DNA of 64,000 nt. It comes from Cystobasidium ongulense. Taxonomy: Eukaryota > Basidiomycota > Cystobasidiomycetes > Cystobasidiales > Cystobasidiaceae. Below, one piece after another: positions 43,758-49,389 of this stretch. Made by a program: the position numbers and the translations under genes. Position 1 is the first letter of the stretch; each line of letters starts with the position of its first letter. The notes beneath the pieces are model-generated. The model saw only the letters and a program-made list of their open reading frames with translations. It had not been told where the DNA came from and did not search any database. Where the stretch lies: positions 620,001 through 684,000 of the forward strand of contig BQUP01000006.1 of assembly GCA_022835595.1 (NCBI GenBank). Direction: 5' to 3'.

Positions 43758-45044
43758 ATGCATGGCCGTGTCGAAGACTGCATGGCCGCATTGAAGACTC
43801 CCTCGCGCGCACTGCGAGGTGCAAGTGCAGCAGCATCTGCGCGACTCAAGCTCTGCATAGGCGCTGGACTCTTTGCAGTGGTCCTCCTATGGCTCATCAC
43901 ACCTGCTTCAGGCAAGCTATATCGTCCAAGCGATCATGCGAACCCTATTGCACTAGAGAACCAAGATCTGGAGATCATCAATTCAATTATTATACCCTCG
44001 TATAATGAAGGTCCTAACATGGCACCTTTGTGGGCTACCTTTATAACACTTGCTGCGTTTCTAATTCGTTCATCAACTAAATGGTCCTCTTCTCGACAGA
44101 GTATCACGCATCTTCCAAGCTATCCCACCAAATCAAGTTAGACACACTGAAATACTAGTAATAGACGATAATTCTCAAGATACCACCTCGAGCGAGATTG
44201 AAATACTTCGAGAGCAAGGTTACAATGTGCATCTGCACGTAAGAAAGACAGAACGAGGTCTATCGTCTGCAGTTCTGCACGGCTTTACTCTAGCTCAAGG
44301 GAAGAAATTATTAGTAATGGATGCAGATCTACAACATCCTCCAGAGAGCGTGCTTTCTTTCTTAGAAGCTTTAGACGAGCCCTCTCTTCCTATAGATACC
44401 ATATCTAATGAAGGAACAACCAAGTCAATAGCGGAAGAGATGAAACCTAAGTTCGCACTAGGGACGAGATATGCAAAAGGGTACGAGATGGATAAAGATT
44501 GGCCTTTTTATAGAAGAGTTATTTCCTGGGGTGCTAGATTACTCTCTCGTCCTTTGACGAACGCACAAGATCCTATGGGCGGTTTCTTTGCTTTACGGAA
44601 GGATCTAGTGAGCGTTTTCCATAATATTCTGCTCTTCTTGGCATGTTGCGTGATTACTTACGTTCGGTGTGCTGTCAGTTCCTCGCATCTGAACCACTCA
44701 ATCCATCAGGCTTCAAGATTGGTCTAGAACTGCTCTTGAAGACACCACTCCTGTCAACACAACTAGTGCACGTCCCATATGGATTCGCAAAACGGCAGGT
44801 AGGATCTTCTAAATTAGGTATGAAAGTGATTATAAAGTACATAGGACAATTGCTAGCTTTATATCAGTGGAGGTTCGGTCTATTCTTCTATCTATTTGTC
44901 TTTCTATGCGTCAGTGTAGGGTTGAATTGTCTGATTTTGGGACTGGATTGGGCGGTCAAAACGCTTGGATGGGAGGAGAGTCAGCTTGGGAGGTCTGTCC
45001 TGATCAACAAGCGACAGAAGCTGAGGCACAAGAGTGATGTATGA
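43758..45044 (+). CDS. DPM1: Dolichol-phosphate mannosyltransferase
   Basis: Three exons, 43758-44029, 44100-44607 and from 44679. The GT2 fold shows IIPSYNEGPNMAPL, ILVIDDNSQDTTSSEI, GLSSAVLHGFTLAQGKKLLV, MDADLQHPPESVLSF (the DAD metal site and its QHPPE extension) and ALGTRYAKGYEMDKDWPF. QDPMGGFFALRKDL is the conserved acceptor-loop motif. The enzyme makes dolichyl-phosphate mannose from GDP-mannose at the ER for N-glycans, O-mannosylation and GPI anchors. A hydrophobic segment (FGLFFYLFVFLCVSVGLNCL) near the C-terminus is the membrane anchor. A second one near residues 35-55 (LCIGAGLFAVVLLWLITPA) is unusual for the family. It shares a 197-base upstream region with the acidic-protein gene. 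Confidence 0.92.
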
Positions 45045-45243: not shown

Positions 45244-45978
45244 ATGACTCACCAGATCGTCTACCAGCCAGACTCGACAAAGTAAGTCCTGCCTGCATGG
45301 CGTCCCCACTCGCTGGCTGGCTGCGAGAGAGAGCGGGCCGGACGGACCTGAAGGCCCAAAGCTGAACCTCTTCCCCAGGACCGAGACATACAGCGTCTAC
45401 ATCGATGATGCACAAGCATACCAGAAGTGGTTCGAGGGAGGTGAGTCTCTTCGTTTGCTTTTCATCCGCCTTTCATGCTTTCAAACTCGGGCTGACCTCG
45501 GACGCCTTTCATCTCGCTACAGACACGTAAGGTCGCTCCACAGTCAAGCATACACTATATAACGACTGACAATGACAACGTATACATGCTCCTTTCCACA
45601 GCTCTATCGGACTAGCCACCTTTGTCGGCAGATTCGAGGTCTTCCACTCTGTTCAAGGAGCTCAAGGACAATGGACACCAGCTAGCAAGAGCCAGCTCGC
45701 TAATGATCTAGGTAGCGAAGACAAGGACGAATGCATCAAGATCATTTTGAAGGGAGGTGGTAAACAACATGGTGATAGATTCACCAAAGGTCTAGAGAAG
45801 GGAAAGTACAACAGCACAAAGTGAGTTCAAGCATATAGCCTCTTTTACAAAGGACTTGGAACACTCGCTCACCTCTCGCCTATTTCCCCATTCTCGTACT
45901 TGCAGCGACTCTCTGGCTGGTGGAAACCAAGTGTCCCTAGGCAGCAACGCTGGTGGCAATCACTCTGGCGGTCGATAA
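45244..45978 (+). CDS. RTC3: Rtc3-like small protein with SBDS N-terminal domain
   Basis: Five exons, 45244-45281, 45379-45440, 45523-45526, 45602-45820 and 45906-45978, total 396 bases for 131 residues. The product reads IVYQPDSTKTETYSVYIDDA, WFEGDTSIGLATFVGRFEVF, GAQGQWTPASKSQLANDLG and DECIKIILKGG, ending in a Gly/Asn/Ser tail. This is the FYSH/SBDS N-terminal fold as in yeast Rtc3/Hgi1 (YHR087W), a stress-induced protein implicated in RNA metabolism, not the full ribosome-maturation factor Sdo1. Exon 3 is only four bases; without it the frame closes at once. The glycine-rich end is longer than in yeast. Confidence 0.87.
45523..45526 (+). other. 4-base micro-exon in the Rtc3-like gene
   Basis: ACAC lies between an acceptor (GCTACAG) and a donor (GTAAGG). 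It links WFEG to SIGLATF through the codons GAC ACC, matching the D-x-SI order of the family. Skipping it runs into a stop within four codons. Flanking introns are 82 bases (45441-45522) and 75 bases (45527-45601). Confidence 0.85.
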
Positions 45979-46401: not shown

Positions 46402-49389
46402 ATGGATGCAGACCTCTTTTCACTACTGCTCGACACTACTGCACACTCGAACGCTTCACCGCCGCGAAAGGCGGGTGTCCATCGCATGCGAGCACAGGAT
46501 TACCACGACCACGACCATCATGATCCATCCGTGGACAGCCTCGACGGCGGCAGCAGCAGCAGCAGCAGCAGCAACAGAGGCCGCGAAGATGGAGTCGCAG
46601 TGACGCGAGCGAGCAGCGGACGCCGGATAGCTATCGCGTATCTGCGGAATGACCTGCGGTAATGGCTTGACCAGCTTTCTTTCGTGCTATCCTCGCTCTG
46701 AACCATGTCCCTTCATTCTCGACATACAGTATACTCGACAACGCATCGCTCTACTTTGCACATAACAACGAGAACAATCCAACACATGTCCTGCCCCTCT
46801 ACATATACGACGAACGTCAGGTCGAATGCTCTGGTCTCCCAGGCTATAAACGTAAAGGCCCTGAAGCTCGTACCAGGCTATGTCGCTTTTGGCGCTCTGG
46901 AGTCTTCAAGACGCGTAAGTGGGCTATCCTTGTTATACTATCACACTCGGAAACTCCATAGTCTCCTACTCTCTGCTGAGATGATCTCCTTCTTTCATCG
47001 AACTCTACATCTCGCCCCATCTACCTCGATCTCGCTCATCGCCGTTTCAATTCACAAACCCATTGCCACCACTCAGGCTTCCTCACCGAGGCAGTATACG
47101 ATGTGCAACATCGACTGAGAGACCGAGGAAGTGGTATGCTCGTAAGATTTGGTCTGCCAGAGGAGATCATAGTCAACCTCGTACAAGCGTTACAAGCTCG
47201 TGGCGATGAGGTTGTCGCATTTGAGATGCAGAAAGAGGTGCGTCTTCTCAATAAACCAAACATACGATACCCCTACAAGCCTCCCAACTGACTACCCTGT
47301 GTTGCGTTTTCTTTACAGATGTGCGCCGAAGAAATAGCCGTAGAGAACAAAATCAAGAGACGGTTGAAAGACCTTGGCGTGCTCAATTATCGATGCCATT
47401 ATACAAAAGAAATGATTCACAAGGATGATCTACCTTTCCCTGTCGCCAATGTGCCTGATGTTTTTACACCTTTTCGAAAAAGGGTAGAAGCATTAGGTGA
47501 TAAAATGGTACGGAAAATGTTAGAAATGCCAGATCATTTCTTACCGTTTCCAAATGAAGAAGAAGATCCGATTAGAGATGATGATAATTATGGACATCAA
47601 ATTGAGAATTGGACTTTTGAAAAAACATTGAATTGTTTGTTCCTTCCTTTGAAAGGAAGTTATGAGTTAAAATATGCTGCTCCTGGTTCTTTAAGACATA
47701 AAGCTTCTGCTTTCCCCTGGATGGGTGGTGAGACATCTGCTTTGGATAGATTAGATTATTACTTTATAGCTGGTAGACCCCCTCCGGTTTCTAGATATAA
47801 AGAGACTAGAAATATGTTATTAGGTCATGAATATTCTACTAAAATGTCACCTTTTCTAGCTATTGGCTGCATCTCCCCAAGACAAATCATAGCTGCTGTA
47901 GATTTGCATGAGGAGAAGTATGGTTCATCACAAAATACATATTGGGTAAGATTTGAGTTACTCTGGCGGGATTATTTCCTCTACGTAGCGCAAAAATTCG
48001 GGAATTATCTTTTTAAATTGGAAGGATATGAAGGTATAACGGATCCAAAAATGGCAAATAAGAAATTGAACGAGTGGAACGATTGGAATCCTGATGATCA
48101 TTTATTAAAAGCTTGGTTGAGAGGTAGAACTGGAGTCCCGTTTATCGATGCTAATATCGTTGAACTACGGGAAACGGGTTTCATGAGTAATAGAGGTAGA
48201 CAGAACGTGGCTAGTTTCTTGACAAAGGATTTATACTTTGATTGGAGGATTGGAGCGGAATTCTTCGAGAGCCAGTAAGTGAAATTTGCCTTTTCCGCTG
48301 GAACTTGCCACCCCCGCTGGACCTTAACTAAGTATATTACCGTAACCTGCCAATAGCCTCGTCGACTATGAACCCACTGCGAACTGGGGCAATTGGCAGT
48401 ATGTAGCGGGAGTTGGCAATGATCCGCGTGCTTCCAGACAATTCAATCCTATCAAGCAAGCTAGAGACTACGATCCACATGGTGACTATGTCCGGACTTG
48501 GTTAGTCCAGCTGAGCGAGATACCCGATGCCAAGATACATACTCCTTGGTTATTGACCGATACAGAATGGAACCGATACCTCGGTAAGGGCAACACTACC
48601 CAGAAATCTAGTAGCAATAGCTCCTCCAGCATGACTTCCAGAACTCGACCATCAGTCGTCAAAGACACTTCACGCCAGGTTCTATCTACCGAAGCTGTGG
48701 GTCGACTAGGATTGGCAGATGGAAAGAGATTAAAAGGCCCAAGTCAAGATAATCGATACAGTGCTCTGACTGCACAGAGCGGTAGCGAAGGCGATAGTCC
48801 ATCATCTAGCTACTTGCGTACAAATGGCAACAGTAGAAGGAGCGTCAGTGTTAGTGACAGTGGGAATGGCTCCGGCAGTGGGACCAATAGCGACCAGTAC
48901 GGTACAGGTCGGCATGGAGGTTACGCTAGTGGATCTACTGGCCCTTCTTCTTACACGTCTTCTGAAGTAGGGGGTGGCTCAGATACCACCGATCGCAAGA
49001 GCCAGTCGAAGATTACTGCACCTTCAGCTTCTTCTGCCAATGTTCGCCCTCCTTCTAATCGGTCAAGAAGCTCGGGAACAACTGTTAGCGAAAGTGAGAC
49101 GGGAAGTACGAGCTCGAGTGTCGCCGCCCCCGCCGCCGCATCCACCGATGACGCTAAACAGTTGAATGAAAGCAAAGTCGTACATCCTTCAGCTTCTTGC
49201 CTAGGTAAAGAAATGAACGAAAAAGATGATTACTTTTCCGATACTCCATACCCTCGAACACCTTTATTCGAACAAGAAAGTTGGAAACCACACTATAATC
49301 GGAAAGATCATGGGAGAAAGCGAAATGGACCGGGTGGTGGTAATTCAAGACGGTTGATTCGGGGACCTCCTCCAATTGGCAAGAAGTAG
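46402..49389 (+). CDS. Cryptochrome-DASH (photolyase family)
   Basis: The first photolyase strand reads [20 protein letters not shown], followed by [20 protein letters not shown] and a short exon with [20 protein letters not shown], typical of the DASH group. A long exon at 47319-48275 holds [59 protein letters not shown] and [20 protein letters not shown], which form the FAD and DNA site. [15 protein letters not shown] follows after one more intron. CRY-DASH proteins repair pyrimidine dimers in single-stranded DNA or act in blue-light sensing. The N-terminal extension has a Ser tract from an AGC repeat. About 230 extra C-terminal residues are Ser/Gly-rich and end [18 protein letters not shown], an RG-type tail also common in fungal CRY-DASH. 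The ATG at 46402 is the first in frame. Confidence 0.93.
46551..46573 (+). repeat. AGC/CAG microsatellite in coding sequence
   Basis: Eight near-perfect CAG units, read as AGC codons to give a seven-serine run in the N-terminal extension of the cryptochrome. Confidence 0.9.

Follow-up and report, generated by a model that had tools for sequence, protein, structure and literature searches.

A predicted four-nucleotide exon in a SNOR/Rtc3-like gene of Cystobasidium ongulense

Within a 64,000-nt stretch of Cystobasidium ongulense DNA (the window), the four bases ACAC at positions 45523-45526 are very probably a real microexon, as predicted from the sequence alone. They belong to a five-exon gene on the plus strand (45244-45978) whose exons of 38, 62, 4, 219, and 73 nt add up to 396 nt and encode 131 aa. 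On rechecking, the gene model and all coordinates of the original prediction were confirmed, including the exon sum of 396 nt. The features of the gene, together with two rival splicing choices and the stop codon reached when the microexon is skipped, are as follows.

Exon 1: 45244-45281, plus strand, 38 nt, from the start codon up to the donor GTAAGT
Intron 1: 45282-45378, plus strand, 97 nt, GTAAGT...CCCCAG, with CTGAA motifs 31 and 17 nt from the 3' end
Exon 2: 45379-45440, plus strand, 62 nt, the 3' end encoding W F E G plus base 1 of the Asp34 codon
Intron 2: 45441-45522, plus strand, 82 nt, GTGAGT...GCTACAG, with CTGAC 31 nt from the 3' end
Proposed 4-nt microexon ACAC: 45523-45526, plus strand, bases 2-3 of Asp34 and bases 1-2 of Thr35
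Intron 3: 45527-45601, plus strand, 75 nt, GTAAGG...TTCCACAG, with CTGAC 36 nt from the 3' end
Exon 4: 45602-45820, plus strand, 219 nt, the bulk of the SBDS_N domain (SIGLATF...ASK...)
Intron 4: 45821-45905, plus strand, 85 nt, GTGAGT...CTTGCAG
Exon 5: 45906-45978, plus strand, 73 nt, including the stop codon TAA
Rival single intron: 45445-45601, plus strand, 157 nt, weak donor GTCTCT, also giving 396 nt, with WFEGGDSIG
Rival 4-nt exon TCAA: 45544-45547, plus strand, acceptor ...CCACAG at 45543 and donor GCATAC at 45548, giving 396 nt, with WFEGVNSIG
TAG stop after skipping of the microexon: 45613-45615, plus strand, ending a 37-aa product 205 nt upstream of the end of exon 4

Exon 2 ends in GAGGGAG, its last base at 45440, and runs directly into the gtgagt of intron 2. 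The original prediction placed ACAC between a consensus acceptor and a consensus donor, and this was borne out, with CAG before it and GTAAGG after it: the last base of the acceptor (...ctcgctacag) is 45522 and the first of the donor (gtaagg) is 45527. The acceptor of intron 3 (...ctttccacag) ends at 45601, immediately before exon 4 at 45602. The microexon contains no whole codon, as its first AC finishes that of Asp34 (G-AC) and its second opens that of Thr35 (AC-C).

A single-domain SBDS_N protein related to SNOR/Rtc3

The only Pfam match of the spliced protein up to E 1 is SBDS_N (PF01172), at 51.7 bits against a cut-off of 24.6; at the same threshold, domains II and III of SBDS are absent, leaving SBDS_N alone in the 131-aa protein. 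In the PDB, too, only two entries match at E 1 or below: 9phc, which is S. pombe C21C3.19 (E 0.0002), and 1nyn, which is S. cerevisiae YHR087W (E 0.002). This supports the Rtc3-like identity first assigned to the gene, and the protein is probably a homologue of S. pombe SNOR/Rtc3. All three proteins have SBDS_N in common, while the one described here carries one extra residue before SIGL. Reading the whole genome (19.8 Mb in 19 contigs) exon by exon for SBDS_N, up to E 10, returned three matches: the SNOR homologue and two that are exons of SBDS. This search showed no second SNOR-like copy, although a finely split one could escape it.

SNOR of S. pombe (SPBC21C3.19), which received its name in 2026, is bound to ribosomes and aids the restart of translation after dormancy, and its Lys68 is the main rRNA contact (PMC13345908). 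This residue aligns with Lys64 of the protein studied here, and Asn73 aligns with Asn69. In S. pombe, uL16 is contacted by Glu43 and Asp46; at the aligned positions the protein studied here has Thr41 and Gly44, so that both acids are absent. We do not take these acids as defining, because the S. pombe double mutant lacking them bound ribosomes more strongly (PMC13345908), but their loss does lower the claim that the same ribosome contacts are made. Of the three residues that contact eIF5A in S. pombe (Gln69, Glu72, and Asn73), which correspond to Ser65, Ala68, and Asn69, one is kept. Judging from this alignment, the ribosome contacts of the SNOR homologue may differ from those in S. pombe. The tail encoded by exon 5 (45906-45978) is rich in Gly, Asn, and Ser, while the exit-tunnel tail of S. 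pombe SNOR is positively charged (PMC13345908).

Two further genes lie nearby in the window. Upstream, on the same strand, is a glycosyltransferase family 2 gene (44065-45044; PF00535 at 70.1 bits for 44065-44607) with a 71-nt intron placed by eye at 44608-44678, and its product resembles a dolichol-phosphate mannosyltransferase. Downstream, at 47292-48278, a match to PF03441 (92.3 bits) marks an exon of a gene for a DNA photolyase or cryptochrome.

Reading frame and family match at the junction

The frame between exons 2 and 4 needs a shift of one base modulo three, and the original prediction was right that something has to supply it. If the microexon is skipped, a stop follows after 37 aa. 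The product is 35 aa long when intron 3 is retained and, in a shifted frame, 89 aa long when intron 2 is. With the donor at 45441 kept, the sole other single acceptor that restores the frame up to 45640 is at 45615, and its use deletes SIGL and lowers the SBDS_N score to 39.4 bits.

We enumerated splice choices at this junction using GT/GC-AG sites from about 45400 to 45640, with every intron 40 nt or longer. The frame was kept by 23 solutions with one intron and by 140 with two, and 27 of these 140 use GT at both donors. Both KWFE and SIGLATF were retained in four of the 23 and 22 of the 140, and a coding sequence of exactly 396 nt was reached by one single-intron and five two-intron solutions, six in all. 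With KWFE and SIGLATF kept and two residues after the Gly, there are three distinct junctions, each of 396 nt: the ACAC exon (WFEGDTSIG), the intron from 45445 (WFEGGDSIG), and the TCAA exon (WFEGVNSIG). A variant with an exon of zero length yields the same protein as the single intron from 45445. Consequently, the original statement that only ACAC joins WFEG to DTSIGLATF is correct for the letters D-T and incorrect for the frame, which 23 plus 140 solutions keep, and the length of exactly 396 nt, accurate as it is, is not diagnostic.

Family resemblance discriminates among these solutions only in part. The SBDS_N score is 51.7 bits with ACAC and 50.9 with the intron from 45445, and four further solutions that were scored range from 39.4 to 44.1. 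The family order had been said to demand these four bases, which is not supported, as a junction with a single unknown residue (X) scores higher than Asp-Thr against Pfam (53.9 vs 51.7 bits), S. pombe (26.9 vs 24.9), and yeast (24.2 vs 21.7). With none, two, or three unknown residues at the junction, the Pfam score is 49.5, 49.5, and 48.3, respectively. In the S. pombe and yeast relatives the stretch from the Trp to the Ser/Thr is one residue shorter, but the yeast relative has an extra residue nearby (SIGKL), which indicates that the length of this loop varies. The better score of the one-residue junction fits either a loop of variable length or a 161-nt intron combined with an assembly error, the latter being weighed below. 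Basidiomycete Rtc3 proteins often read W..GDTSIPL, a two-residue junction, to which we gave no weight. Two scans of viral contigs and two of genome contigs, with no fungal collection among them, confirmed no relative from another fungus that could show conservation of the junction. Thus, exact length and family match alone do not select ACAC: what homology settles is the frame, and not which four bases supply it.

Splice signals and alternative readings

Splice-site strength favours ACAC over the alternatives. The donor at 45441 pairs with the 5' end of U1 at -10.3 kcal/mol, and just 13 of 4,000 random genomic GT sites are at least as good. The donor at 45527 is only average (-5.1 kcal/mol; 412 of 4,000 at least as good), on par with the gene's own outer donors at 45282 (-5.1 kcal/mol) and 45821 (-5.2 kcal/mol), while the donor at 45445 reaches -2.1 kcal/mol, a value matched or exceeded by 1,379 of 4,000 sites. 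CTGAC occurs in both flanking introns, 31 and 36 nt from the 3' ends of the 82- and 75-nt introns. We also counted donor hexamers at frame-compatible coding junctions with a strong acceptor (n = 234) against background donors (n = 3,328). GTGAGT (13/234 vs 38/3,328) and GTAAGT (8/234 vs 18/3,328) were enriched; GTCTCT was found in 0/234 against 21/3,328, where about 1.5 would be expected, which is weak evidence by itself, and GTAAGG was also found in 0/234, against 5/3,328, so the count cannot judge either of these rare hexamers.

As a yardstick we used six introns: the two outer ones of the SNOR homologue, the one in the neighbouring glycosyltransferase gene, and three in SBDS. Their positions are provisional, set by eye on the basis of the reading frame and of likeness to the protein families, in part to SBDS and DPM1 sequences, and only intron 1 of the SNOR homologue and intron 1 of SBDS lie within or between parts of a Pfam match. 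The SBDS gene is on the minus strand elsewhere in the same genome, and its three short introns (58, 68, and 60 nt), whose donors fit GTRNG and which contain CTGAY or CTAAY motifs, are usable for this purpose; retention of the third leaves the frame open. All six yardstick donors have a purine at +3 and G at +5, as do 45441 and 45527 but not 45445. The six introns measure 58, 60, 68, 71, 85, and 97 nt. A strict count of coding junctions, small in numbers, gave a clear excess of in-frame over out-of-frame pairs only at 60-75 nt (11 vs 3 and 2), with no such excess at 75-90 nt, the bin of both flanking introns (5 vs 5 and 5), or at 160-200 nt (3 vs 5 and 4).

To estimate how often such a microexon would arise by chance, we kept the first 6 and last 45 bases of the real 161-nt interval and looked for a frame-restoring exon of at most 15 nt with YAG, an upstream CTRAY, and a GTRAG donor. 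From 264 kb of genome, 40,000 segments were drawn at random, of which 964 with N were dropped. Such an exon occurred in 88 of 39,036 genomic segments and 31 of 40,000 Markov shuffles, or in 232 of 39,036 and 104 of 40,000 with the looser donor GTRNG; these rates apply to one interval, not to all the introns looked at for the original prediction. Under the rules of this test, the real interval contains one site only, ACAC, for sizes of 1-30 nt.

Three other approaches were set aside. A splice-site matrix built by expectation-maximisation on the 264 kb swelled from 192 to 1,096 members and lost the donor consensus, and its percentiles were left unused. Intron finding by coding potential gave 12 to 98 strict pairs, outnumbered by decoys at each setting, and was not used; the hexamer count and the six yardstick introns took the place of both. 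A microexon survey of the 264 kb returned one triple, out of frame, and was uninformative: the coding model assigns a negative score to the beginning of exon 4, and ACAC itself was missed for that reason.

These signals bear directly on the other ways of reading the locus. A single 157-nt intron from 45445 to 45601, with the donor GTCTCT, would need no microexon, as the mRNA would keep GTGA after exon 2 and read WFEGGDSIGLATF. It is in frame, also gives 396 nt and 131 aa, and scores just 0.8 bits below the microexon model for SBDS_N. However, the splicing machinery would have to ignore the strong GTGAGT four bases upstream (-10.3 vs -2.1 kcal/mol), the S. pombe match would fall from 24.9 to 22.4 bits, and the internal acceptor, branch point, and donor would all be coincidental; the empty hexamer count for GTCTCT points weakly in the same direction. 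We therefore regard this intron as unlikely. The distinguishing letters in the mRNA would be GAGGGAGGTGACTC for this intron and GAGGGAGACACCTC for ACAC.

We give a similarly low probability to a single 161-nt intron (45441-45601) coupled with a one-base assembly error or a real frameshift close to the junction, in which case the true junction would have one residue between WFEG and SIGL. This would account for the best family scores, those obtained with the single X, and the gap against S. pombe would disappear. Yet it needs an error within a short stretch in addition to a chance microexon with all three signals (88/39,036), and the intron would be longer than each of the six placed by eye; moreover, the extra yeast residue close by indicates that loop length is variable.

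More improbable still is that the locus is alternatively spliced, or that the full protein is no longer made, with the microexon as a minor or accidental product. As skipping or retention of either neighbouring intron ends the frame early, weak splicing would be enough to cut output, but five exons with an open frame of 396 nt and a 51.7-bit domain argue for selection on the full product, and the exon-by-exon genome search for SBDS_N described above found no second SNOR-like copy. Splicing seldom uses GC donors, which mostly depend on a favourable context. The TCAA exon, although in frame at 396 nt with the strong donor at 45441 and giving WFEGVNSIGLATF, is hardly credible, as its donor GCATAC at 45548 lacks both purine-G at +4/+5 and G at +5 and its second intron, at 54 nt, is shorter than all six yardstick introns.

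Splicing of ACAC and its relation to known microexons

In our preferred reading, ACAC would be a 4-nt internal exon that is used constitutively, in a gene whose one domain is SBDS_N, and its inclusion would add one base modulo three and link WFEG to SIGLATF via Asp-Thr. Introns 2 and 3 would each be recognised across the intron, with donor, CTGAC branch point, and acceptor contained within 82 and 75 nt. They would presumably be removed one after the other, because two spliceosomal complexes would probably not fit together with only 4 nt between them, and either order would leave the sites of the remaining intron intact. Intron definition with stepwise removal is a reasonable interpretation for introns short enough to suit it, and Guo and Liu argued for the same mode in the 1-nt exon of APC11 (PMC4674806). 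On inspection, a stwintron, i.e., an intron within an intron, was rejected, since removal of 45441-45522 creates no donor that was split.

Exons of four bases had been placed at the physical limit for normal exon definition, but this view is not supported, as exons of a single nucleotide are documented (PMC12940212, PMC4674806). A close parallel is the 1-nt exon of CYP621A in Fusarium, which is backed by 20 orthologues, a relative that lacks introns, and 18 RNA reads (PMC12940212). As with ACAC, the gene is fungal, the neighbouring exons are out of phase, and a tiny exon flanked by AG and GT restores the frame in a conserved stretch, and both exons were found by the same reasoning; the Fusarium exon is 1 nt and has orthologue and RNA support, whereas ACAC is 4 nt and is known from genome sequence. 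The 1-nt exon of APC11 in Arabidopsis also restores the frame and is constitutive, as proposed for ACAC, but belongs to a plant and was tested with GFP constructs (PMC4674806). Exons of 1 nt are known in other plants as well. In rice, an exon of the same size as ACAC was validated by RT-PCR, and annotation lacking it truncates the protein; such small plant microexons are often missed by annotation and, in contrast to ACAC, were discovered from RNA-seq (PMC8831610).

Among other fungi, the P450 genes of the basidiomycete Phanerochaete chrysosporium have short introns and very short exons, as seen here, with a shortest exon of 6 bp in that set against 4 nt for ACAC (PMC1184071). Xlr2 of Trichoderma virens contains a microexon in a filamentous fungus, but this one toggles between long and short isoforms of differing function, whereas skipping of ACAC truncates the protein early (PMC11121469). 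In the available portions of two Cryptococcus papers, microexons are named solely as a mapping option (PMC3990503, PMC8022950). The open-licence literature that we searched named no 4-nt exon in an Rtc3/SNOR gene. Given the 1-nt exons of Fusarium and Arabidopsis and the 4-nt one of rice, ACAC is probably a further case of a known kind of exon rather than one at the physical limit.

It is conceivable, if improbable, that the efficiency of ACAC inclusion acts as a splicing gate that sets the amount of the SNOR homologue, for example on a change in glucose, because the protein stops at 35-89 aa when the microexon is skipped or one of the two introns beside it is retained. If true, the supply of a ribosome-dormancy factor would depend on how well the splicing machinery is working. 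If ACAC itself is real, the few fungal exons below 6 nt found in the literature searched gain a further member of 4 nt, in a gene whose S. pombe relative had no assigned function, in ribosome dormancy and restart, before 2026 (PMC13345908). SNOR was found in 87% of 2,248 fungi (PMC13345908), in a survey that used annotated proteins according to a preprint (PMC13041879). The usual gene finders are expected to truncate or mis-join a gene of this kind, and SNOR surveys based on annotated proteins could miss such cases.
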